A DNA stretch of 64,000 nt, from the NCBI RefSeq assembly GCF_017569225.1, contig NZ_CP071868.1, positions 2,108,001 to 2,172,000 of the forward strand. The letters are read 5' to 3'. Below the pieces are notes generated by a model. It worked only from the letters and a program-made list of their open reading frames with translations. It was not told where the DNA came from and searched no databases. The stretch is from Pengzhenrongella sicca. GTDB taxonomy: Bacteria; Actinomycetota; Actinomycetes; Actinomycetales; Cellulomonadaceae. Position 1 is the stretch's first letter. Each line of letters opens with the position of its first letter. This document shows, in pieces, positions 34,241-46,388 of this stretch. Both the position numbers and the translations under genes were made by a program.

Positions 34241-35833
34241 ATGCGCACGGTCGACGCCGTCGTCATCGGGTCGGGGCCGAACGGCCTCGTCGCCGCGAAC
34301 GCGCTGGCCGACGCCGGGTGGGACGTGCTGGTGCTCGAGGCGCAGGACACGATCGGCGGCGCGGTGCGCACGGCCGAGGTCACGGCGCCCGGGTTCCGCA
34401 CCGACCTGTTCAGCGCGTTCTACCCGCTCGCCGCCGCTTCCCCGCTGATGCGCGGCCTGCACCTGGAGGACCACGGCCTGCGGTGGGTGCGCGCCCCCGA
34501 CGTGCTCGCCCACGCGCTCGACGACGGCCGCACGGCAGTCCTGCGCGCGGACGCGACGGACACCGCCGCGGGCCTGGACGCGTTCGCGCCCGGCGACGGC
34601 GACGCCTGGCTCCGGATGGTCGAGACCTGGCGCCGGATCCGGGACCCGCTGCTCGACGCGCTCTTCACGCCGTTCCCGCCGCTGCGCTCGGTGGCGCGCC
34701 TGCTCCGCCGGGTGGGCGTCGCGGGCGGGCTCGACCTCGCGCGGCTCGCCGTCGAGCCGGTGCGCCGGCTCGCGGACGAGACCTTCGCAGGGGAGGGCGC
34801 GGGCCTGCTCCTGACGGGCAACGCGATGCACGCCGATATCCCGCCTGACGCCGCCGGCAGCGGGGCGTTCGGCTGGCTGCTCGCGATGCTCGGCCAGGAC
34901 GTCGGGTTCCCGGTGCCCGAGCGGGGCGCAGGCTCGCTCGCCGACGCGCTGGCGGCGCGCCTGCGGGCCAGCGGCGGTCAGATCGAGACGGGCGCGCGGG
35001 TCGATGCGGTCGAGATCTCCGGCGGACGCGCGATCGGCGTCCGCACCCACGACGGCGCGCACCTGCGCGTGCGGCGCGCCGTGCTCGCGGACGTGCCCGC
35101 GCCGTCGCTCTACCTCGACCTGGTCGGCGCGGCGCACCTGCCCGCCCGGCTGCGGCGCGACCTGGGCCGGTTCCAGTGGGACCACCCGACGTTCAAGGTC
35201 AACTGGGCGCTCGGCTCGCCCATCCCGTGGGCGTCGGCCGACGCCGCGGGCGCCGGCACCGTGCACCTCGGCGTCGACCAGCCGGGCTTCGTCGACGCCG
35301 CCGCGAGCCTGTCCGTGGGCCGGATCCCCGACCGGCCGTTCCTGCTGTGCGGGCAGATGACGACCGCCGACCCGACGCGCTCGCCCGCGGGCACCGAGTC
35401 GGCGTGGGCCTACACGCACGTCCCGCACGGCGTGACCTGGACCGCGGCGCAGGTCGAGGCCCAGGTCGAGCGGATGGAGGCCGCACTCGAGCGGACCGCG
35501 CCGGGGTTCGGTGCCGCGATCCTCGCGCGGCACGTGCAGAGCCCCGTCGACCTCGAGGCGGCGAACGCCAACCTCGTCGGCGGCGCCGTCAACGGCGGCA
35601 CGTCGGCGCTGCACCAGCAGCTGTTCTTCCGCCCGACCCCGGGCCTGGGCCGGTCCGAGACCCCCCTCGCCGGGCTGTACCTCGCGTCCGCGTCCGCGCA
35701 CCCGGGAGGCGGGGTGCACGGCGCGTGCGGCTGGAACGCCGCCCGCGCGGCGCTGGCGGGCGCGGGCGGCCTGGGCCGGGCGCGGCAGGCGCTCGTCCAC
35801 TCGGCGTGGGATCGGGTGCTGCGCGACGGGTGA
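34241..35833 (+). CDS. NAD(P)/FAD-dependent oxidoreductase (phytoene-desaturase/PYROXD2-like)
   Basis: A 530-residue flavoprotein. The N-terminal dinucleotide fold is VVIGSGPNGLVAANALADAG with LVLEAQDTIGGAVRTAE after it, and the C-terminal FAD-contacting segment is LYLASASAHPGGGVHGACG. This places it in the carotenoid-isomerase/desaturase-like group whose members are widespread in actinobacteria but mostly of unknown substrate. There are no other carotenoid genes nearby, so pigment synthesis is not supported. ATG 34241 has GAGGAG five bases upstream. It is followed after about 140 bp by the membrane c-di-GMP gene; co-transcription is possible but not shown. Confidence 0.82.
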   Translation: MRTVDAVVIGSGPNGLVAANALADAGWDVLVLEAQDTIGGAVRTAEVTAPGFRTDLFSAFYPLAAASPLMRGLHLEDHGLRWVRAPDVLAHALDDGRTAVLRADATDTAAGLDAFAPGDGDAWLRMVETWRRIRDPLLDALFTPFPPLRSVARLLRRVGVAGGLDLARLAVEPVRRLADETFAGEGAGLLLTGNAMHADIPPDAAGSGAFGWLLAMLGQDVGFPVPERGAGSLADALAARLRASGGQIETGARVDAVEISGGRAIGVRTHDGAHLRVRRAVLADVPAPSLYLDLVGAAHLPARLRRDLGRFQWDHPTFKVNWALGSPIPWASADAAGAGTVHLGVDQPGFVDAAASLSVGRIPDRPFLLCGQMTTADPTRSPAGTESAWAYTHVPHGVTWTAAQVEAQVERMEAALERTAPGFGAAILARHVQSPVDLEAANANLVGGAVNGGTSALHQQLFFRPTPGLGRSETPLAGLYLASASAHPGGGVHGACGWNAARAALAGAGGLGRARQALVHSAWDRVLRDG

Positions 35834-35972
35834 GCGGGCGCGAGCAGCCGGCTCGGCGCAAGCCCGAAGGAACCTGCTGCGCCTGCCGATAGGACACGGT
35901 GTCGGCACAGCACGCGCCCCGCCTCCGTGGTTCGGTCGCGCCGACGTCACCGCGAGCCGGGGAGGTCGAGCG

Positions 35973-38360
35973 ATGCACGGCAGCCGGTGGTCTCAGCTGT
36001 CGCGCCTGGCGCCCGTGTCGGTGATCACGCTCGCGTCGTCGGCCTGCTTCGTGCTCGGTGCGAACCGACCGGGGTCGGCGGCGCTCCTCGCGCAGCAGGC
36101 GGTGGCGATCGTGGTGCTCGCGGCGTCCGGCGCCGTCCTGTGGACGCGGGCGGGGTCGCGCGGCGACGACGAGGGCAGCGAGCGGGGGGTGTGGCGGGCG
36201 CTCGCCGCGGCCGTGTTCGTCGCGGCCGTCGGCGCGACGGCTCAGGCCGCCCTCGACTGGGCGCGGTTCCCGATCGGCGCCGATCAGTTCGCCGTCCGGT
36301 CGGCGGTCTTCGGCGCGTCGACCCTGGTCGCGTGCCCGCTGCTGTACCAGGCGCTGATCCGCTGGAACCGGGCCCGGGGGCTGGTCGGCGATCCGGACGA
36401 CTGGCTCAACGGGCTGAGCGCCGTGTTCGCCCTCGCCGCGATCGTCAATCTCGTCCTGTGGCACGGCGGCGGCGCGCTCGCGGACCTGCCCTGGTGGGTG
36501 GTCCAGGGATCGGTGTTCCGGCTCGGCGTGACGTTCGTGCTGCTCGGCACCACGGTGACGGTCAGCTTCATCGCGGGGCTGCACCGGGACGCCCGAATCT
36601 GGGGCATCGGCGCGGCGCTGGCCGTCATCCTTGGCTCCGAGGTGGCGGCGCTGCGGGACGTGGGCGCGGTCAGCCCCGACCGTCCGCTGCTGCTCGGCTG
36701 GGTCGCGGCGGCCGCCCTGCTCGCCTGGTGCACGGTGCTCTCGCCGACCCGCGTGCGGCCGCGGCCGGCGACGGCACGGGCCACGGCCGTCGGCGCCGTC
36801 GTCGTGCTCCTGGCGAGCGTCGCGGTGCTGATCATCCACGGCGAGGGCCTCGCGCGGTCGCCCGGGGCGCACGGGCACGGGTACCTCGTCCACGCGCCGA
36901 ACGTGCTCGCGGCGCTCGCCGTGCTGGGCATCACCGTCCGGCTCGTGCACCTGATTCGCGACATGGCCCTGCTCGCGCAGACCCGGCAGGAGGCGCGGAC
37001 CGATGCGCTGACCGGCGTCGCGAACCGGCGCGCGCTGATGGCCCGCCTGACGGAGTCCGGCGACCGCGGCGGCCCGCTGAGCCTGCTGGTGATCGACCTC
37101 GACCGGTTCAAGGACGTGAACGACCGGTATGGCCACCCGACCGGGGACGCGCTCCTGCGCTCGGCGGCGACCCGGTTCGCGGCGGTCGTGCCCGCCGGCG
37201 GGCTCCTCGCGCGCCTCGGCAGCGACGAGTTCGCCGTCCTGCTCCCGGGCGACGCCGCGACCGCCGAGGGTGTCGCGGCGGCCCTGTCGGACGAGGCGCG
37301 CGCCATCGCGGACATCGCCGGCCATCCGGTCCGCACCTCGGTGAGCATCGGCCTGGCCGCGGGCGCCCCGGACCTGGACGGCGAGGAGCTGCTCCGGCGC
37401 GCGGACGCCGCGATGTTCCTCGCCAAGTCGGGTGGCGGTGGCGGCGTCAGCCGGTACGACAGCGAGATCGACCGGGCGGACCGCGACCGTGGCACCCGGG
37501 TGGAGGAGCTGCGCGCGGCGCTCGACCTTGGCCGGCCCGACCCGGGCGAGCAGTTCGTCATCTACTACCAGCCGCAGGTGGACGTGCGCAGCCTCGCGGT
37601 GACCGGGGTCGAGGCGCTGGTGCGCTGGCAGCACCCAGGTCTCGGTCTGCTCGCGCCCGGGGAGTTCATCGACCTGGTCGAGAAGTACGGGCTGATGCCC
37701 GAGCTGACCGCGCGCGTGCTCGGCGAGGCCGCGGCGCAGGCCGCGCGCTGGCAGGCCGACGGCGTCCCGCTGCGCATGTCGGTCAACATCTCGACGAGCT
37801 TCCTGACGCACCCCGAGCTGCTCCCGCTGCTCGACACGGTGCTCGCCAGCACGGCACTGGATCCCGCGCTGCTCGTGCTGGAGGTCACCGAGACGACCCT
37901 GATGGCCGACGCCGTCCGCGGGCTCGAGGCGGCCCACGCCATCGCCGCCCGGGGCGTCGGGCTCAGCATCGACGACTACGGCACGGGCTACTCCTCCCTC
38001 GCCTACCTCAACGACCTGCCCGCGACGGAGCTCAAGCTCGACCAGTCGTTCGTCTCACGGCTCGTCGTCGACGACCGGACGGCCGCGATCGTCGCGGCCA
38101 CGATCGAGCTGGCGCACCGGCTCGGGCTGCGGTCCATCGCCGAGGGCGTCGAGGACGACGCGACCCTCGCCGTGCTGGAGACGTTGGGGTGCGACGAGTG
38201 CCAGGGCTACCTGCACAGCCGGCCGCGACCGATCGCGTCGCTCGAGCCGTGGCTGCGTGCCCGTCGCGCTCTCCTGGCGCGGCGTGGCGTGCTCGGCGCG
38301 TCGGCGACCGGCGAGTTCCAGCTGCCGAGGGAGCCGCCCGCGCCCAGAACCGGGCGGTGA
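35973..38360 (+). CDS. Membrane GGDEF-EAL c-di-GMP protein
   Basis: A 795-residue protein with about eight hydrophobic spans in the first ~330 residues, forming an unclassified membrane sensor module. GGDEF (about 340-495) and EAL (about 525-775) domains follow. The cyclase signature is GSDEF (Gly416 to Phe420), with Ser at the second Gly; the catalytic Glu is present but activity is uncertain. The EAL domain is complete: EAL at Glu547, NIST, EVTETT, DDYGTGYSS, KLDQSF, AEGVED and CQGYL. Phosphodiesterase activity is likely, with the GGDEF domain as GTP sensor or second activity. ATG 35973 has GGAGG seven bases upstream; the much longer upstream frame runs through the oxidoreductase gene out of phase. 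Confidence 0.88.
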   Translation: MHGSRWSQLSRLAPVSVITLASSACFVLGANRPGSAALLAQQAVAIVVLAASGAVLWTRAGSRGDDEGSERGVWRALAAAVFVAAVGATAQAALDWARFPIGADQFAVRSAVFGASTLVACPLLYQALIRWNRARGLVGDPDDWLNGLSAVFALAAIVNLVLWHGGGALADLPWWVVQGSVFRLGVTFVLLGTTVTVSFIAGLHRDARIWGIGAALAVILGSEVAALRDVGAVSPDRPLLLGWVAAAALLAWCTVLSPTRVRPRPATARATAVGAVVVLLASVAVLIIHGEGLARSPGAHGHGYLVHAPNVLAALAVLGITVRLVHLIRDMALLAQTRQEARTDALTGVANRRALMARLTESGDRGGPLSLLVIDLDRFKDVNDRYGHPTGDALLRSAATRFAAVVPAGGLLARLGSDEFAVLLPGDAATAEGVAAALSDEARAIADIAGHPVRTSVSIGLAAGAPDLDGEELLRRADAAMFLAKSGGGGGVSRYDSEIDRADRDRGTRVEELRAALDLGRPDPGEQFVIYYQPQVDVRSLAVTGVEALVRWQHPGLGLLAPGEFIDLVEKYGLMPELTARVLGEAAAQAARWQADGVPLRMSVNISTSFLTHPELLPLLDTVLASTALDPALLVLEVTETTLMADAVRGLEAAHAIAARGVGLSIDDYGTGYSSLAYLNDLPATELKLDQSFVSRLVVDDRTAAIVAATIELAHRLGLRSIAEGVEDDATLAVLETLGCDECQGYLHSRPRPIASLEPWLRARRALLARRGVLGASATGEFQLPREPPAPRTGR

Positions 38361-38383: not shown

Positions 38384-39118
38384 TCAGCTCCCGGCGCCCG
38401 AGCCGGTCGAGCCGGCCGCGTCGCTCGGGGCGAGCGGCAGGGTCGCGCCGTCAAGCAGGAGCTGGCCGGCGCGGGCCTTGGTCTCGCTCAGGTCGCTGCT
38501 CCACAGCTCGGCGAGCTGCTCGAGGTCGTCGATGGTGTAGCCGGCGGCCCAGAGCGCGTCGTTCGGGGATTGGAGCTCGGTGGCCGGCGACGACGTCCCG
38601 GGGGTCACGGGGACGACCTCGCCATCGAGGATGAGTTGGCCCGCACGGGCCTTCGTCTCGGTCGCGTCGGTGGTCCACAACGCGCTCAGCTCGTCGACGT
38701 CGGCGGTCGTGAAGCCGGCGCCCCAGAACGCCTCGTACTGCTCGCGGGTGTAGCCGTCGGGCATGGCCGACCAGTCGATCCCCACAGCCTGGGCCACGCT
38801 CTCGACCGCGCGCGCGCCGCTGGAGTACGGGTTCGCGGCCGCGGCCGCCCCGGCGCCGTAGACCGCCAGCGCGGACAGCACGACGCCGGCCGCGACGGCC
38901 TTGGTGCCGCGGCGGGCCAGGGGAGTCACGCTCGCGGAGGACCCGGCGGGGAGCTCGGCCGGCCCGAGCGACGCGGACCGCGGGCCGCCGGGCGCCGCGG
39001 CGAGCCGGGCCTCCAGGCGGGCGGTGAGGTCCGCGACGTCGGCCGGCGTCGCCTCGCGCGAGCGCAGCGCTCGGGTGATCCGCCCGGCGAGCTCGTCGTC
39101 GCGGGGGTGCTCGTTCAT
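38384..39118 (-). CDS. Membrane-anchored LW-repeat protein, possible anti-sigma factor
   Basis: No family recognised. The 244-residue protein has a charged cytoplasmic N-terminus (1-71, helical; no zinc H-x3-C-x2-C motif), one membrane span (about 72-95) and an exported half. The latter contains two copies of a ~45-residue unit with FWxAGFT or LWAAGYT, a central LW pair and ETKARAGQL[IL]LDG (about 120-166 and 186-234). Residues 95-166 are nearly identical to a block of the secreted paralogue at the operon's other end. ATG 39118 overlaps the sigma-factor stop by 4 bp. The position directly after an ECF sigma gene plus the single-span topology make an anti-sigma role the best inference. It is the last gene of the four-gene operon. 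Confidence 0.75.
   Translation of the reverse strand: MNEHPRDDELAGRITRALRSREATPADVADLTARLEARLAAAPGGPRSASLGPAELPAGSSASVTPLARRGTKAVAAGVVLSALAVYGAGAAAAANPYSSGARAVESVAQAVGIDWSAMPDGYTREQYEAFWGAGFTTADVDELSALWTTDATETKARAGQLILDGEVVPVTPGTSSPATELQSPNDALWAAGYTIDDLEQLAELWSSDLSETKARAGQLLLDGATLPLAPSDAAGSTGSGAGS
38621..38836 (-). repeat. Duplicated 216-bp block, copy A
   Basis: Encodes 72 residues, from ANPYS to the first LLLDG-type end, of the membrane-anchored repeat protein. The matching block at 41075-41290 differs at only about six residues, and the DNA is also closely similar. Spacing inside the operon (about 2.2 kb between copies) and the near identity suggest recent duplication or gene conversion. 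Confidence 0.85.
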
Positions 39119-39687
39119 CGCTGCTCCAAGGGGGTCGTCGGGTCGGTGTGCCGCAGCGTCGCGAGCGCGCGGGAGGCGTGGGAGCGGACGGTCGCGGCGG
39201 AGGTGCCCAGGACGCTCGCGATCTCGGGGTCGCTCAGGCCCTCGTAGTAGCGCAGCACCAGGACCGCGCGCTGCCGCGGCGGCAGCTCCGCGAGCTGACG
39301 CCACATCGCGTCGTCCTCGACGACGTGCTGGGCGTGGTCGCGCTCGGGATCGAGGTGGACGGCGAGGGTCTCGTCGGTGACCGGGCGGATGTTCCGCACG
39401 TGCCAGCGCCGGCGCCAGGACAGGTGCTCGTTGGTGACCATCCGGCGCAGGTACAGGTCGGGCCGCGCGAGCATCCCGATCCGGGTCCAGCGCATGTGGG
39501 CGCGCAGCAGCACCTCCTGGACGAGGTCGGCCGCGGTGTGCGCGTCGCCCGTGAGCACCGTCGCGTACCGGAGCAGCCCGGGCAGGTGCACGCGCACGAC
39601 GTCGTCGATCGCCGCGGCCTCCCCGGCGGGCCGGACGCACGGGATCGCCGCGCTGTCCGAGCCGGCCTCGCCGAGCGTCGTGCTCAT
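39115..39687 (-). CDS. SigE-family ECF RNA polymerase sigma factor
   Basis: A 190-residue sigma-70 family factor with regions 2 and 4 only. Region 2 has LLRYATVLTGDAHTAADLVQEVLLRAH and the following WTRIGMLARPDLYLRRMVTNEHLSWRRR, typical of the actinobacterial SigE group. Region 4 has ELPPRQRAVLVLRYYEGLSDPEIASVLGTSAATVRSHASRAL. Such factors direct RNA polymerase to envelope-stress or niche-specific promoters and are usually held by a membrane anti-sigma factor. Its ATG overlaps the amidoligase stop by 4 bp, and its stop overlaps the next gene's ATG by 4 bp, so all three are translationally coupled. Confidence 0.9.
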   Translation of the reverse strand: MSTTLGEAGSDSAAIPCVRPAGEAAAIDDVVRVHLPGLLRYATVLTGDAHTAADLVQEVLLRAHMRWTRIGMLARPDLYLRRMVTNEHLSWRRRWHVRNIRPVTDETLAVHLDPERDHAQHVVEDDAMWRQLAELPPRQRAVLVLRYYEGLSDPEIASVLGTSAATVRSHASRALATLRHTDPTTPLEQR

Positions 39688-40763
39688 CGGCGCACCGCGA
39701 CGAGGTCGTCCAGCGCGACGCGCGGGTCGCGCGCCGCGCCGGCCGCGGGCCGCGGCAGCGGGCGCGCATCGAGGCACCGCGCGAGCAGCGCACCGACCAG
39801 GCCTGCGCGGCGCACGACGTCCCGGCCGTCGATCGAGCCCGGCAGGATCCGTACCTCGACGGTGTCGCGCACCGGGTGCGGACGCACCAGCTGCGTCAGG
39901 TTGACGTCGGCGTACTTGGTCAGCTCGACGGCCCGCGCCGCCTCCTGCAGGCGCGCCCAGCCGGACCCGTCGGCGGCGTCCTGCCAGTCGTGCTCCACGA
40001 GGGTGAGGAGGTCCGCGGGCAGCGGGGCCAGGCGCCGGCACGCCGGGTTGGTCTCGAGCGCGGCCCACAGCACCTCGCGCCAGTGCCCGAACAGCCGCAC
40101 CAGGTTGGCGAAGGCCGCGGGCTGGCGGAACGGCGCACCGTCGACGTGCAGGTGGACCGCAGCCTCCTGCGGGACGGTGAAGCCGAGCTCGCGCGCGGGG
40201 ATCAGCAGCCGCTCCAGCGCCTGCGCGTGCCCGGCGGTCAGCGGGGGAGTGATGACCTCGCAGGGCCGCTCGCGCCCGGCCGGCAGCGCCATGGCGACCG
40301 CGACGGTCGCGCCGCTCGCGTCGTTGACTCGCGCGGCCGCGCCGAACACGTCCACGCGCACCCCGAACAGCTCGGCGATCGGCTCCAGCACGGTCGCGAG
40401 CGGCGCACCCGGGTCGGCCTGCCGGTCGATCAGCCGAAGCAGGCGGCCGTCGTCGCACAGGACGCGGTACCAGCCGCGGTGCCCGGGCAGCCCGGGCGCC
40501 GCGGCCAGGTCCGCCGCGATCGTGAGGTCGTCCACCAGCCGCGCCACCGGCCGCCCGGGCCCGTCGACGACGTCGAACGCCGGGGACAGGGTGCGGAAGA
40601 CCCCGACGCCGGGCACCGCGGCCGGCTCGCTGTCGGTGTGGAACGACCGACCGACTCGCCCGTCGCAGCGCGCCGCGATCTCCCGCGCGAGCACCTCCCG
40701 GTCGGACCCGGGCGGCGCCAGCAGCTCGATCTCGAAGCCGGTGCGCAGTGTCAGCTCGTGCAC
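39684..40763 (-). CDS. Amidoligase (glutamine-synthetase-like fold) family enzyme
   Basis: A 359-residue protein matching the Amidoligase_2 pattern: GFEIEL (9-14), a central CEVITPPLT (168-176), HLHVDG (204-209), KYADVNL (263-269) and TVEVRILPGSID (281-292). These acidic and His residues correspond to metal/ATP-binding strands of the glutamine-synthetase/COOH-NH2 ligase fold. The family is predicted to form amide or isopeptide bonds for peptide tags, cell-wall decoration or small metabolites; few members have known products. The start is a GTG at 40763 with AGGAG twelve bases upstream, a little far. No glutamine amidotransferase or gamma-glutamylcyclotransferase, frequent partners, is nearby; the partners here are repeat proteins and an ECF sigma factor. 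Confidence 0.82.
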   Translation of the reverse strand: MHELTLRTGFEIELLAPPGSDREVLAREIAARCDGRVGRSFHTDSEPAAVPGVGVFRTLSPAFDVVDGPGRPVARLVDDLTIAADLAAAPGLPGHRGWYRVLCDDGRLLRLIDRQADPGAPLATVLEPIAELFGVRVDVFGAAARVNDASGATVAVAMALPAGRERPCEVITPPLTAGHAQALERLLIPARELGFTVPQEAAVHLHVDGAPFRQPAAFANLVRLFGHWREVLWAALETNPACRRLAPLPADLLTLVEHDWQDAADGSGWARLQEAARAVELTKYADVNLTQLVRPHPVRDTVEVRILPGSIDGRDVVRRAGLVGALLARCLDARPLPRPAAGAARDPRVALDDLVAVRR

Positions 40764-40816
40764 GTGGATGCTCGTCTCCTCGCGAAGCGGGTCGGCAGGA
40801 TGCCTGGCGGTACGGG

Positions 40817-41404
40817 TCAGGACGCGGCGCCGGTCGTGTCCTCGCCGCTGGGCGCCACCGGCGGGGTCTGCCCGTCGAGCAGGAGCTGGCCGGCGCGCGC
40901 CTTGGTCTCGGTGGCGTCACTGTTCCACAAGGTGGAGAGCTGCTGCAGGTCGTCCACGGTGTAGCCGGCGGCCCAGAACGCGTCGAGCTGGGCCTGCGCG
41001 TCCGCCGACGCGCCGTCGGCCCCGGACTCCGGCGCGAAGGTCTCGACGCTGCCGGGGGCGATGGGCACGTCCGCGCCGTCGAGCAGGAGCTGGCCGGCGC
41101 GGGCCTTGGTCTCGGTGGCGTCGGTGCTCCACAGCGCGCTCAGCTCGTCGACGTCGGCGGTCGTATAGCCGGCGTCCCAGAACGCCTCGTACTGCTCGCG
41201 GGTGTAGCCGTCGGGCATGGCCGACCAGTCGATGCCCACGGCCTGGGCCACGCTCTCGACGGCGCGCGCGGCGCCCGAGTACGGGTTGGCGGCGGCCGTC
41301 GCCGCGCCGGCGCCGACGGCGGACAGGCTCGCGGCGACGACGCCGACGGCGAGCAGACGACGGCGCCGCTGGCGGGCGGTGGCGGTGGTGGTGATCGGGT
41401 TCAT
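40817..41404 (-). CDS. Secreted or tethered LW-repeat protein, paralogue of the operon's last gene
   Basis: No family recognised. The 195-residue protein has a basic start (RQRRRR) and a hydrophobic stretch (about 17-39) ending near an ATAAAN signal-peptidase-like site, so it is probably exported; the mature part has two LW/KARAGQLLLDG units (about 64-110 and 131-178) and an acidic tail. Residues 39-110 are almost identical to the membrane protein encoded 2.2 kb downstream, but the cytoplasmic 71 residues of that protein are missing. ATG 41404 has AGGAGG six bases upstream. First gene of the operon, 53 bp before the amidoligase. It could be substrate, ligand-binding partner or competitor of the membrane paralogue. 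Confidence 0.75.
   Translation of the reverse strand: MNPITTTATARQRRRRLLAVGVVAASLSAVGAGAATAAANPYSGAARAVESVAQAVGIDWSAMPDGYTREQYEAFWDAGYTTADVDELSALWSTDATETKARAGQLLLDGADVPIAPGSVETFAPESGADGASADAQAQLDAFWAAGYTVDDLQQLSTLWNSDATETKARAGQLLLDGQTPPVAPSGEDTTGAAS
41075..41290 (-). repeat. Duplicated 216-bp block, copy B
   Basis: Counterpart of the block at 38621-38836, here encoding residues 39-110 of the secreted paralogue. Each protein also carries a second, more divergent unit, so four related KARAGQLLLDG-encoding units occur within 2.7 kb. Confidence 0.85.
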
Positions 41405-41489
41405 CGGGTCCTCCTGGGGCGCTGCGGATGTGCGTGCCCTCTTAAGACGCCGCCCGACGCCGATCTGTGCAGTCCCGCGGGCGACCCGC

Positions 41490-43517
41490 TCAGATCCTCC
41501 CGACGAGCTCGGGGTGCGACCCGTCGCGGGCGAACACCGGGATGACGGCGAGCGGAGCGTCGACGACGACTGTGCCCCCGCCCGCGAGCACCGCGCCGGA
41601 GTGCAGGTCGGTCCAGGTCGCGCCGGCGGGGAGGTACACCTCGCGGGACGTGGCCCCGGGCACGATGACGGGCGCGACGAGCAGGTCGGGGCCGTACATG
41701 TACTGGTCGGCGAGGTCCCAGCACGGCGCCTGGTCGGGGAACTCGTGGAACATGCCGCGCATGACCGGCTGCCCGGACTCGTGCGCGGCGGCCATGAGCT
41801 CCCGCGTGTAGGGCCGCATCGCCTCGCGCAGGTGGACGTAGCCGGCGAGGATCTCGTACACGTCGTCGCCGAAGCTCCACAGCTCGTTGCCGCCGCCGCT
41901 GGCGAGCCGCGGCGAGCCGTCGGCGGCCTGCACGGGTTCGCCGGGCAAGCGGTCGCCGTGCAGGCGCATCACGGGGCAGAACGTGCCGAACTGGAACCAG
42001 CGGATGAGCAGCTCGCGGAACCCCGGATCCGTGATGTCGCCGTCGTGGAAGCCGCCGATGTCGGTCGTGAACCAGGGGATGCCCGCGACGCCCATGTGGA
42101 TGCCGGCGGTGATCTGCCGGCGGTAGTCCTCGAAGGTGGAATGGATGTCGCCCGACCACACGAGCGCCCCGTAGCGCTGGCTGCCCGCCCAGGCGCACCG
42201 GACCAGGTTGACGATGTCCTCCTGGCCGGCCGAGCGCTGGCCCTCGTAGAGCGCGCGCGAGAAGGCCTGCGGGTAGATGTTGCCGACCTGGACGTTCGTG
42301 CCGAGGTGGTAGCGGAAGTTGTCGAAGTCGTACACGCCGTACTCGGGCTCGGCCTCGTCGAGCCAAAAGGTCTTGATGCCGAGGTCGAAGTAGTTCCTCT
42401 TCAGGGTCGCCCACAGGAACTCGCGGGTCGCGGGGTTGGTCGGGTCGAGGAAGACGCTCGGGCCCTCGAACTGCATCTGCATGTCGATGCCGCGCTCGGA
42501 GCGCACCAGCAGGTTGTTCTTCTTCATGGCCGCGAAGTTCTCCGACCGGATGGACACCTGGGGCCAGACGGAGACCATGAGCTCGACCCCCAGCCCGCGC
42601 AGCTCGTCCACCATCGCCTGCGGGTCCGGCCAGAACTCGGCGTCGAACCGGAAGTCGCCCATCTGCGGCCAGTGGAAGAAGTCCGCGACGATCACGTCCA
42701 GCGGCAGGCCGCGGCGCGTGTGCTCGCGCGCCACCTCGAGCAGCTGCTCCTGGTTCCAGTAGCGCAGCTTGCACTGCCAGAAGCCGAGCCCGTGCTCGGG
42801 CATCATCGGCGCGTGCCCGGTCGCGTCCGCGTAGGCCGCAGTGATCGCGGCCGGCGTGTCGCCCGCCGTCACCCAGTAGTCGAGCTGCTTGGACGACTCG
42901 GCGACCCACTCGGTGCGGTTCAGCGCGAAGTTCGCGCGCCCGATCGCCGGGTTGTGCCACAGGAACCCGTAGCCCGCGCTGGACAGCACGAACGGCACGC
43001 TGGCCTGCGAGTTGCGGTGCGCGAGCTCGAACGCGCTGCCCTTGATGTCGAGGATGTGCTGCTGGTACTGGCCCATCCCGTAGAGCTTCTCGGCCGGGTC
43101 GGCCTCGAACGCGGCCGTGATCCGGAAGTCCCCGCCCAGGTGCGGGCGCAGGTCGCGCGCCTTGAGGTGCAGCGAGCCGCCCGGGTCCAGCTCCTTGAAC
43201 AGGAGCGTCCCGTGCTGGTTGTAGAAGGCCAGCTCGCACCGGTGCACGCGGTACCCGACCAGGTCGGAGTGGAACGACCGGGCCGTCAGGACGGCCGTGA
43301 GGTTGCCGTTCGTCAGGCGCGCGACGTCGCCGTCGACGTCGATGCTCGCGTCGGTCGCGGGCTGCGGCAGCAGGGCGAAGCCCGACTCCACCACGTCCGC
43401 CATGACCGCCGACCGGACGCGCACGCTGTCGGCGCCCCACGGCTCGACCCGCACCGTCTCGCCGTCGCCGCGCCACACCAGTGCGGTGCCGTCCAGCTCG
43501 AACACGTCTGCCGTCAT
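41490..43517 (-). CDS. GH31 family alpha-glycosidase
   Basis: A 675-residue GH31 enzyme without signal peptide, so intracellular. After an N-terminal beta-sandwich (galactose-mutarotase-like) the barrel has the nucleophile in FWLDEAEPE (Asp387) and the acid/base in VWSGDIHST (Asp457); the C-terminal beta-domains follow (GPDLLVAPVIVPGATSREVYLPAGATW). GH31 includes alpha-xylosidases, alpha-glucosidases and some alpha-galactosidases; the sequence alone does not settle which. ATG 43517 has AAGGA upstream. It follows the GH127 gene by 26 bp and is the last gene of the LacI-controlled glycan operon, suggesting it removes an alpha-linked side sugar from the imported oligosaccharide. Confidence 0.88.
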   Translation of the reverse strand: MTADVFELDGTALVWRGDGETVRVEPWGADSVRVRSAVMADVVESGFALLPQPATDASIDVDGDVARLTNGNLTAVLTARSFHSDLVGYRVHRCELAFYNQHGTLLFKELDPGGSLHLKARDLRPHLGGDFRITAAFEADPAEKLYGMGQYQQHILDIKGSAFELAHRNSQASVPFVLSSAGYGFLWHNPAIGRANFALNRTEWVAESSKQLDYWVTAGDTPAAITAAYADATGHAPMMPEHGLGFWQCKLRYWNQEQLLEVAREHTRRGLPLDVIVADFFHWPQMGDFRFDAEFWPDPQAMVDELRGLGVELMVSVWPQVSIRSENFAAMKKNNLLVRSERGIDMQMQFEGPSVFLDPTNPATREFLWATLKRNYFDLGIKTFWLDEAEPEYGVYDFDNFRYHLGTNVQVGNIYPQAFSRALYEGQRSAGQEDIVNLVRCAWAGSQRYGALVWSGDIHSTFEDYRRQITAGIHMGVAGIPWFTTDIGGFHDGDITDPGFRELLIRWFQFGTFCPVMRLHGDRLPGEPVQAADGSPRLASGGGNELWSFGDDVYEILAGYVHLREAMRPYTRELMAAAHESGQPVMRGMFHEFPDQAPCWDLADQYMYGPDLLVAPVIVPGATSREVYLPAGATWTDLHSGAVLAGGGTVVVDAPLAVIPVFARDGSHPELVGRI

Positions 43518-43543
43518 TTCCTTGCCTGTCCTTCGGTCGTGAC

Positions 43544-45526
43544 TCACGTGGTCGGGAGGAACACTCGCATCGTGGACGGCCCGCGCTGGGCCCACGAGTG
43601 GTAAGGCACCAGGCGCACGGCCAGCGGCGGGGCGTCGTCGGCCGACGACGCCGCGTCGAGGCCCGGCGGGACGTCCCGGTAGGGCAGGCCCTCGCCGGCG
43701 TCCTCCGGCCGGTCCGCGCGGCGGACCTGCACGAACGCGCCGGGTTCGGCGTCCGTGGGGGGCCGCGTCGGGTCCACGCGCAGGTCGTCGAGCGGGCCGG
43801 CGTCGTCCAGGTCGGCGGACTCCAGGCAGAGCACGACCGGCCCGCGCTCGACGGCGACGCACCCGCGCACGGCGTCAATGCGCCGATCTGGCGTCGAGAA
43901 CCGGGGCGCGACGGGCAGGTCGAGCTCGAGCCGCTCGCCGGCCGCGAACGTGCGGTGCACGTCCGCGAACCCGGGCGGGGCCTCGATGCGGCGGCCGTCC
44001 TCGTGCAGCACGGCGCCGGTCGCCCAGCTCGGGATCCGGAAGCGCAGGAGCACGGGGCTATCCGGCGCGGTCACGACGCGGACGACGACCCGCCCGGAGG
44101 CGGGGTAGTCGGTCTCGACCTCGAGGCCCAGGGCGGCGCCGTCGGGCAGGGTGAGCCGGAGCGAGCCCGACGCGTACTGCAGGAGGCTCACCGCGCCGTC
44201 GTCGCCCACGGTCGCGGTGTAGGTCTGCCACGTCGCCAGGGTGCGGGCGACGTTCGTGGGGCAGCAGGACACGTCGAACCACGGTGCCCGCGCCGCCCCC
44301 TCGGCTCGCAGGTTGACGGCGTCGGGCGACGTGGGCTCGCCCGGCGTGCGCTGCTGGAGCGGGTTCGCGTAGAAGAACGCGCGCCCGTCGGGGCCGGGCG
44401 AGGTCGCGATGACGTTGTAGAACGTGCGCTCCATGAGGTCCGCGTAGCGCACGTCGCCGGTCGCGAGGAACAGGCGCCACGACACCATGACCGACGCGAT
44501 CCCGGCGCACGTCTCGCAGTAGGCCCGGTCGGGCGGCAGCTCCCAGTCCTCGCCGAAGCCCTCGTCCTGGTGCCGGGAGCCCATCCCGCCGGTGAGATAG
44601 GTGCGGCGCGAGACCGTGGCGGTCCACTGCCGCTCGAGCGACGCGAGGAGGTCGTCGTCGCCGGTGTCGACCGCGACGTCGACGGCCGCGGCGCTCAGGT
44701 AGAGCGCGCGGACCGCGTGGCCCCGCAGGACCGCGGCGTCCCGCACGGGCACGTCGTCCTGGAAGTAGGACGGCGACAGGAGCGGGATCGGCCGCAGGAG
44801 GCCGCGACCCCGGCGCTCGACGAAGAGGCGGGCCTGTTCGGTGTACCGCGGCTCCGCCAGCGCGCGGCCCAGCTCCGCCAGGCCGAGCTCGATCTCGGGG
44901 TGCCCGCAGATCGCCTCCCGCCGTCCCGGGCCGAACTCGCGACACACCTGGTCCGCGGTTCGGCGCGCGACGTCCACCAGGGCGTCGGCGCCGGTGGTCC
45001 GCAGCCGCGCGACGGCGGCCTGCAGCAGGTGCCCGACGCAGTACAGCTCGTGGCCCATCTCGAGGTCGACGTACCGGCCGCGCTGGCCGGCGTGCCCGAA
45101 GTAGGTGTTGAGGTACCCGTCGTCGTCCTGCGCGCGCGCGATGCGTGCCGTGAGCGCGCGCAGGGTGCGGTCGGTGCCGGGGTCGCCGGTTCGGCCGTAG
45201 TCCCAGGCCAGCGCCTCCATGAGCTTGTAGACCTCGGAGTCGGAGAACTGCCAGCCGGGGCGGCCCGGCCCCGTGGCGCCGTCGGCCACCCGGTCGAAGT
45301 TCGCCAGCCAGCCGAGCCGGTCCATCCACCGCTCGCAGTGCGCGAGCGTCGCGGTGGTGTTGGTCTGCTGCCGGGCCGCCCAGAAGCCGTCCGTCAGCCG
45401 GACCTCCGCGACGCCGACGCCGCGGCGCGAGCCCCGGCGGGGCACGACCGGCCGCCCGCCGGTCGGGTCCAGGCCCGGGTCCGACTGCGGGGAGGTCGCG
45501 GGCGTGGGGGAGTGCGTGATGGTCAT
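43544..45526 (-). CDS. GH127 family glycosidase (beta-L-arabinofuranosidase type)
   Basis: A 660-residue (alpha/alpha)6-barrel enzyme. The zinc-thiolate catalytic site of GH127 is complete: Glu338 and Cys340 in CETCAG, and Cys421-Cys422 in SCCPTN, one of which is the nucleophile. The characterised founder of the family releases L-arabinose from beta-1,2-linked arabinofuranosides such as those of hydroxyproline-rich plant glycoproteins; other specificities exist. No signal peptide, so it acts on imported oligosaccharide. ATG 45526 has AAGGAA five bases upstream; the longer frame to 45586 would overlap the permease. With the CUT1 transporter and GH31 it forms a plant-arabinoside or similar utilisation operon. 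Confidence 0.9.
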   Translation of the reverse strand: MTITHSPTPATSPQSDPGLDPTGGRPVVPRRGSRRGVGVAEVRLTDGFWAARQQTNTTATLAHCERWMDRLGWLANFDRVADGATGPGRPGWQFSDSEVYKLMEALAWDYGRTGDPGTDRTLRALTARIARAQDDDGYLNTYFGHAGQRGRYVDLEMGHELYCVGHLLQAAVARLRTTGADALVDVARRTADQVCREFGPGRREAICGHPEIELGLAELGRALAEPRYTEQARLFVERRGRGLLRPIPLLSPSYFQDDVPVRDAAVLRGHAVRALYLSAAAVDVAVDTGDDDLLASLERQWTATVSRRTYLTGGMGSRHQDEGFGEDWELPPDRAYCETCAGIASVMVSWRLFLATGDVRYADLMERTFYNVIATSPGPDGRAFFYANPLQQRTPGEPTSPDAVNLRAEGAARAPWFDVSCCPTNVARTLATWQTYTATVGDDGAVSLLQYASGSLRLTLPDGAALGLEVETDYPASGRVVVRVVTAPDSPVLLRFRIPSWATGAVLHEDGRRIEAPPGFADVHRTFAAGERLELDLPVAPRFSTPDRRIDAVRGCVAVERGPVVLCLESADLDDAGPLDDLRVDPTRPPTDAEPGAFVQVRRADRPEDAGEGLPYRDVPPGLDAASSADDAPPLAVRLVPYHSWAQRGPSTMRVFLPTT

Positions 45527-45569
45527 GCGGTTCCTTGACGCTAGGGACGGACGGGCGGTGGCTGCGTGG

Positions 45570-46388
45570 TCAGTCCTTGACGGCACCGGCTGTCACTCCC
45601 GCGGCGACGTAGCGCTGTGCGATGACGAGCAGGACCGCCGCGGGGATCGACGCGACCGCCGCCGTGGCCATGATCGAGTTCCACTGCGTGGTGTTGTTGC
45701 CGATGTACGTGTAGATCCCCAGCGTGATCGGGATGAGGTCGCCGTTGCGGTTCAGCGTGGACGCGAAGATGAAGTCCGACCAGGCCCACAGGAACGCGAA
45801 CAGCGAGACGGTGATGAGCGAGTTGCGGCTGATCGGGAGCACGATCGACCGGAAGGTTCGCCACGGGCCCGCGCCGTCGATCGTCGCCGCCTGGAGCAGC
45901 TCCTTCTGGATCCCCGCCATGAACGTCGTCAGGAGCAGGACGCCGAAGGGCACCGCGACGGTCGAGTCGGCGATCACGAGCCCCCAGATGCTGTTCAGCC
46001 AGCCGAGGCGGATGTACATCGAGTAGAAACCCATCGCCATGATCACGCCGGGGATCATCTGCGCGACCAGGAGCACGAAGTTCAGCGTCCCCGCGCCGCG
46101 CAGGTGCAGCTGCGCGAGCGCGTAGGCGGCGGGCGCGGCGATCAGCAGGGTCAGCGCGACCGTGCCCAGCGCGATCAGCAGGCTCGTGCCGAGGTTCGGC
46201 AGCTGCTCGCTGAACACGGCGGTGTAACCCTCGAGCGTCGGGTCCCACGGGAACCAGTGCGGCGGATCGGCGCGCATGTCGCTCGTCTTGGTGAGCGACA
46301 CGTTGACCATCCAGTACACGGGGAAGAGCATCAGCGCGGTGAACACCACGCCGAGCGCCGTCTTCCACCACTCGCGCGGGCCGGTCAT
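45570..46388 (-). CDS. Carbohydrate ABC transporter permease (MalG type)
   Basis: A 272-residue inner-membrane subunit with six predicted spans. The cytoplasmic EAA loop reads LLQAATIDGAGPWRTFRSIVLP, where the ATPase docks, and the C-terminus RYVAAGVTAGAVKD is typical of MalG-like CUT1 proteins. ATG 46388 overlaps the stop of the MalF-type gene by 4 bp. It pairs with that subunit and the lipoprotein to import an oligosaccharide; no ATPase gene is in the operon. Confidence 0.92.
   Translation of the reverse strand: MTGPREWWKTALGVVFTALMLFPVYWMVNVSLTKTSDMRADPPHWFPWDPTLEGYTAVFSEQLPNLGTSLLIALGTVALTLLIAAPAAYALAQLHLRGAGTLNFVLLVAQMIPGVIMAMGFYSMYIRLGWLNSIWGLVIADSTVAVPFGVLLLTTFMAGIQKELLQAATIDGAGPWRTFRSIVLPISRNSLITVSLFAFLWAWSDFIFASTLNRNGDLIPITLGIYTYIGNNTTQWNSIMATAAVASIPAAVLLVIAQRYVAAGVTAGAVKD

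Follow-up and report, generated by a model that had tools for sequence, protein, structure and literature searches.

A recurrent four-gene locus of Pengzhenrongella sicca encoding an amidoligase, a SigE-family sigma factor and two exported repeat proteins

The closest described relatives of the locus reported here are the SigE-family extracytoplasmic function (ECF) sigma factors with their single-span membrane partners, the Amidoligase_2 enzymes, the Pup ligase PafA and the YbdK-type carboxylate-amine ligases. The locus lies in a 64,000-nt stretch of the Pengzhenrongella sicca genome (NZ_CP071868.1, a single contig of 4,395,128 bases), which we call the window and within which feature positions are counted. 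It comprises four genes, for an exported repeat protein (SEC), an amidoligase of the glutamine synthetase (GS)-type fold (AMI), a SigE-family sigma factor (SIG) and a single-span membrane protein with the same repeat (MEM). Our analysis confirmed the strand, coordinates, 4-bp overlaps of the last three genes and gene identities proposed in the initial annotation. Across the genomes searched, AMI and the repeat proteins almost always occur together, suggesting that they probably work as one unit, and a functional link between them is very probable. The features are as follows:

SEC, 40817..41404, minus strand: 195 aa, exported, with an N-terminal hydrophobic segment (cleaved or an anchor) and two repeats
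AMI, 39684..40763, minus strand: 359 aa, GTG start, GS-fold amidoligase, Pfam Amidoligase_2 (PF12224)
SIG, 39115..39687, minus strand: 190 aa, SigE-family ECF sigma factor, TIGR02983
MEM, 38384..39118, minus strand: 244 aa, probable anti-sigma factor with its N-terminus in the cytoplasm, a single span and a pair of exported repeats
SEC repeat 1, 41054..41206, minus strand: residues 67-117, counted on the sequence and the repeat alignment
SEC repeat 2, 40850..40993, minus strand: residues 138-185, counted on the sequence and the repeat alignment
MEM repeat 1, 38600..38752, minus strand: residues about 123-173, three helices, block-mean pLDDT 92-97 over 121-170
MEM repeat 2, 38426..38566, minus strand: residues about 185-231, three helices, block-mean pLDDT 95-98 over 191-230 and 78 over 181-190
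Promoter-like motif CTSCACA-N15-SCGTYYTA, 41443..41472, minus strand: candidate SIG promoter ahead of SEC, 0 mismatches

According to the accessible text of PMC8103513, ECF sigma factors have sigma-2 and sigma-4 domains only, with a linker of under 50 residues, and their promoters are usually autoregulated, with AAC in the -35 and CGT in the -10 element. SIG conforms to the domain rule, with Pfam Sigma70_r2 at residues 31-94, Sigma70_r4_2 at 127-178 and a linker of 32 residues. It scored 145.9 bits against the SigE-family model TIGR02983 (cut-off 141.55); in PADLOC it gave weak matches only, to two CARF models. The locus shares with SigE-family systems the sigma-2/sigma-4 architecture, the 4-base overlap with the partner gene and a conserved, promoter-like motif with CGT in its -10 half. 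It differs in the extra amidoligase and extra exported repeat protein within the operon, in a MEM ectodomain built of a repeat present in no library that we searched, and in a -35 half without AAC. Literature searches returned no description of this operon among the matches listed, subscription papers being mostly outside their reach.

Similar comparisons were made for AMI. Its only Pfam match up to E 1 is Amidoligase_2 (PF12224), at E 1.4e-14 and 55 bits, well above the gathering cut-off of 22. We know of no substrate for most Amidoligase_2 enzymes; what sets AMI apart from the family at large is its coupling to an exported repeat protein and, in most cases, to a sigma factor as well. Its AlphaFold2 model (pLDDT 87.3, pTM 0.83) was closest in Foldseek to the solved structure of YbdK, 1tt4 (E 7.5e-4, TM-score only 0.25), and then to glutamine synthetases, all with low TM-scores (about 0.25-0.32). 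Taken together, the structural matches and PF12224 indicate a GS-type fold, and we carry the assignment no closer; AMI scores only 12.5 bits with the NCBIfam YbdK model, whose cut-off is 176.4. PafA has been proposed to derive from glutamine synthetases, and pupylation joins Pup to protein lysines (PMC3511204, accessible text). The likeness here lies in a near-invariant lysine in each repeat, although the acceptor would be an exported protein, nothing at the locus points to a tag protein, and neither PafA nor Dop is among the three NCBIfam matches of AMI up to E 1. A maturase of ribosomally synthesized and post-translationally modified peptides of the graspetide type, an ATP-grasp ligase, was considered and rejected, as AMI matches Amidoligase_2 alone in Pfam and resembles GS-type structures. 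Twenty-three candidate active-site residues, picked by conservation and known GS motifs, were invariant in 37/37 AMI homologues, a set that leaves aside L043, L049 and L078, where the start motif was not found. A simple hydropathy scan detected no hydrophobic export segment in AMI. In Promicromonospora-type loci (L048, L051, L053-L055, L057, L058 and similar), AMI lacks an ATG or GTG at the aligned start and has a possible start about 21 codons upstream.

Of 150 genomes searched in the family, 27 have the repeat protein and 24 have AMI, all of them inside the 27. In the three repeat-only genomes the repeat belongs to a short remnant (G053), to a fragment at the edge of a contig (G142) or to a recombinant (G132, locus L034). 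In 394 genomes of the class, a profile built from 18 AMI rows found AMI in five, the window's included, and one built from 31 MEM and SEC rows found the repeat in the same five; in the other four it is present only beside AMI. The system was absent from the four other listed genomes of the window's genus and was rare across the phylum (2/296 genomes in a one-sequence search; AMI in 2/396 with the profile). Named genomes contributed 17 loci with AMI, from Cellulomonas, Promicromonospora, Sanguibacter and Kineococcus, five of them on contigs that also carry G handles, and in these genera the usual order is SEC-AMI-SIG-MEM. Three gene orders were found overall, each with a repeat gene directly before AMI; the exception is G130, with inserted genes between the two. 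This is a small gene set, patchily spread in bacteria. By the terms of the initial annotation, a failure to find the amidoligase, the sigma factor and the repeat proteins together in other genomes would have counted against the proposed system; the three do recur together, in several genera, with a sigma factor of the SigE type and repeat proteins that are exported. Neither L033 nor the five loci that duplicate contigs under G handles (L072, L075, L076, L077 and L079) entered the counts made for repeats, promoters, pairing and the tree. Mobile carriage was rejected: AMI was not found in the plasmid collection nor MEM in phages, and none of 77 pattern stretches in viral contigs was confirmed. 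A role as a defence system was rejected, since SEC, AMI and MEM have no PADLOC match up to E 1.

The ATGA overlaps of 4 bases lie at AMI/SIG and at SIG/MEM, and SEC is separated from AMI by a 53-base gap. PF12224 has one match in the genome, and a genome search found two MEM-like places, MEM and SEC themselves. Between close pairs, dN/dS was 0.12-0.37 for AMI (9 pairs), 0.08-0.26 for SIG (8), 0.08-0.55 for SEC (8) and 0.11-0.65 for MEM (7). Since the arrangement recurs and dN/dS is below 1 in all four genes, we consider the operon more than a chance assembly.

Autoregulation is suggested by the promoter-like motif ahead of SEC, CTSCACA-N15-16-SCGTYYTA, with CGT in its -10 half. Our count took in 44 SEC-type entries and left out MEM-type rows; three entries had too little upstream DNA, leaving 41 readable. 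At up to three mismatches the motif was found in 34 of these, namely all 33 readable SEC genes that stand ahead of an AMI (33/33) and the recombinant L034. It starts 65-71 bases before the SEC start in 29 of the 33; in L043, L059, L062 and L071 it is 165 or 190 bases away, the SEC start chosen by the script lying further downstream. The seven entries without it are the remnants L040 and L041, the lone paralogue L042, the fragment L044, the MEM remnant that forms the second L043 entry, an additional SEC in L064 and the locus without a sigma gene, L063; a wider upstream look at six of them gave no match better than 4 mismatches. For comparison, of 820 random 200-base segments drawn from the same loci, 41 had a match at up to three mismatches and 10 at up to two, true sites included. 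The window's genome holds one exact copy of the motif, none with one mismatch and 33 with two, against 65 with up to two for the motif read backwards. The single exact copy suggests that SIG probably drives only its own operon. A wider SIG regulon was dropped on the same grounds, there being one exact site and fewer two-mismatch matches than in the control.

MEM is probably the anti-sigma factor of SIG. Its position fits this role, and so does its short cytoplasmic region, in which two helices are predicted; we read it in this way because single-span partners directly follow other SigE-type sigma genes in this genome. Of nine others examined, L120-L122, L124 and L125 have such a partner right behind the sigma gene, a protein that spans the membrane once and begins with a short cytoplasmic segment. 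Three of these, L120, L121 and L122 (at 4212048, 1963955 and 3199220 in the genome), are nearly identical copies of a SigE-type sigma gene and its single-span partner. The hydropathy profile of MEM has one hydrophobic span at residues about 73-91, and the structure model has a helix at 66-86. The model as a whole (pLDDT 75.7, pTM 0.45) consists of two three-helix units, with pLDDT mostly 92-98, one span and two weaker cytoplasmic helices at 5-20 and 25-41, in its low-confidence part. The accessible text of PMC7406223 describes the N-terminal domain of class I anti-sigma factors as four helices, a three-helix bundle plus a fourth; by helix number, the two low-confidence helices of MEM resemble class II and not class I. 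The cytoplasmic part of MEM is conserved in many alignment rows.

The helical repeat itself is not found in the family libraries searched. SEC and MEM have nothing near cut-off in Pfam, NCBIfam or PADLOC, and no Pfam family was reached at its cut-off by the repeat proteins of the window or of the distant loci. PHROG matches were weak only; the strongest, at E 5.2e-4, belonged to the protein of the distant locus L103. Solved structures gave nothing below E 0.18 by sequence, and by fold the best match stood at E 0.73, against a threshold of 0.001. A pattern search caught 129 repeats; since the pattern limited the three positions concerned to W/R, K/T and D/E/N/S/Q, the counts are upper figures. 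They are 129/129 for a tryptophan closing helix 2, 127/129 for the helix 3 lysine and 123/129 for an aspartate close to where helix 2 begins. When the alignment was not forced, the column of the repeat 1 lysine (MEM K156) was invariant in 31/31 rows, and that of repeat 2 (K214) fell in the class of 90% or more. Proteins carry between one and four copies, Kineococcus having one in SEC and one in MEM.

Based on these observations, we favor, tentatively and at somewhat less than even confidence, a self-contained, positively autoregulated ECF/anti-sigma cassette whose AMI acts on exported helical-repeat proteins. The autoregulated sigma/anti-sigma circuit is its likely part; that AMI acts on the repeat protein itself is a more tentative proposal, drawn from co-occurrence and adjacency. 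In this model, the short cytoplasmic part of MEM would hold SIG at the membrane until an outside event at the MEM repeats frees it; our results speak neither for nor against the wall or peptide signal proposed in the initial annotation. SIG would then transcribe the operon from the single promoter before SEC, so that SEC, AMI, SIG and MEM would rise together, a step suggested by sequence. AMI would, most likely, attach an amide bond to the repeat proteins while these are still in the cytoplasm and awaiting export, with the near-invariant lysine of each repeat as the prime candidate site, and the shared repeat could let MEM report the state of the proteins made by the operon. A GS-fold ligase that makes an amide or isopeptide bond at a conserved lysine of exported helical repeats, linked to its own ECF sigma factor and to an anti-sigma factor with the same modified repeat as sensor, would be an undescribed actinobacterial protein-modification system; in this full form we think it rather unlikely. 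If true, the cell would measure its own modification state across the membrane. Four genes here bring together an amidoligase, an almost exclusive partner protein for it, a candidate site and a dedicated transcriptional switch, so that substrate and ECF-pathway signal could be tested together.

Several points weigh against this reading. The co-occurrence counts come from phylogenetically non-independent genomes. The -35 half of the motif departs from the AAC that is usual for ECF promoters (PMC8103513, accessible text), and the cytoplasmic part of MEM, modelled with low confidence, matches no described anti-sigma family in Pfam or NCBIfam. The repeats are confidently folded small domains, as would also suit binding modules, and their conserved lysine may be structural instead. 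AMI is presumably cytoplasmic, whereas the repeats end up outside. Finally, G098 (L041) has only AMI and a 58-codon SEC remnant, with no promoter, and this AMI is open and conserved (dN/dS 0.25 against the window's).

The alternative that survives best is that AMI produces a small amide, or else amidates part of the envelope such as a wall precursor, and that the exported repeats of SEC and MEM bind what results. SEC would carry or buffer the AMI product, and MEM would sense it and release SIG in an autoinducing loop. Folded units in one to four copies are often seen in binding modules, the promoter motif is a sign of positive feedback that would suit such a loop, and the top structural match of AMI is YbdK, an enzyme that acts on small molecules. 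However, no exporter or second biosynthetic gene is common to the loci, and a co-encoded protein is the simplest partner for a one-enzyme operon. We regard this alternative as possible, on the unlikely side.

The initial annotation had also suggested that the secreted copy either competes with the membrane copy or is modified by the amidoligase. In the first case SEC would be a soluble rival of MEM, contending with it for a ligand or partner outside the cell, and would set the threshold of the sigma switch. The ectodomain shared by SEC and MEM favors this idea, and their exported halves were originally called nearly identical; repeat 1 is indeed close to identical, but repeat 2 is less so, and over the whole, identity is 72% for protein and 80% for DNA. 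Also in its favor, pairs from the same genome are slightly more alike (mean 54% over 32 operons) than pairs from mismatched genomes (48%; 0/20000 shufflings), a statistic that ignores the kinship of the genomes. Moreover, a SEC has its own MEM as top-ranked partner in only 5/32 genomes, so relatedness explains much of the excess likeness, and we dropped the idea that SEC and MEM generally evolve in concert. The pair looks homogenised in the window and in L045; given the 54% mean, near-identity is local to the window's genome and a few others and not a feature of the system. Competition cannot be general, because forms without SEC exist: in three distant loci of the same class (L102, L103, L104) the order is SIG, a four-repeat MEM and AMI, with no separate SEC. 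Conversely, a genome of another class (G428, sole carrier among 66 genomes of that class) has a four-repeat SEC followed by AMI, with no SIG or MEM within 14 kb. Competition therefore appears improbable to us.

We give as little credit to the idea that the A-rich boundary after the MEM span (GAGAAAAANPYS) is a signal-peptidase site, where cleavage would release the repeats of MEM as a soluble domain and leave a short stub in the membrane, the ectodomain being just a second secreted product. Among MEM rows this boundary shows good conservation, and it lines up with the signal-like segment of SEC, but the cytoplasmic part of MEM is itself conserved in many rows. That an unrelated amidoligase came by chance to stand beside a common sigma/anti-sigma pair, ordinary as SigE-type sigma genes with single-span partners are in this genome, is contradicted by recurrence in several families and three gene orders and by the near-exclusive co-occurrence of AMI and the repeat, and is extremely improbable.

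Some loci depart from the usual arrangement or are seen only in part. The contig of L105, the fourth distant locus of the class, begins inside repeats ahead of AMI, with the upstream genes out of view; the locus is split between contigs in G064 and G129, and the contig of L074 ends after AMI. The entry at L034:7091-7681 (G132) keeps the promoter motif and the SEC start, has a MEM-like end and lacks AMI and SIG, and is an apparent SEC-MEM recombination product. In G130 (L043), SEC and AMI are several kilobases apart and MEM is damaged. The insert between them (L043:8123-14088) encodes an EAD1-trypsin protein and an AAA ATPase, which we take to resemble a conflict system. Two further exported repeat proteins, encoded at L064:8487-9068 and L042:6195-6914, have no promoter motif ahead of their genes, one of which lies directly after MEM and the other elsewhere in an AMI-bearing genome. 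In the AMI tree Kineococcus falls inside the Cellulomonas-Promicromonospora group, a placement consistent with transfer.

No gene outside the operon is common to more than 3/20 representative loci. In the window, a gene for a GGDEF-EAL protein (35511-38360, plus strand) is convergent on MEM. GGDEF-EAL-like proteins are also encoded in the fetched regions of L104, beside AMI, and of L102, several kilobases off; such genes being common, this neighborhood may be chance. Directly upstream of the operon lie genes for GH31 and GH127 glycoside hydrolases (41490-43862 and 43544-45586, minus strand).

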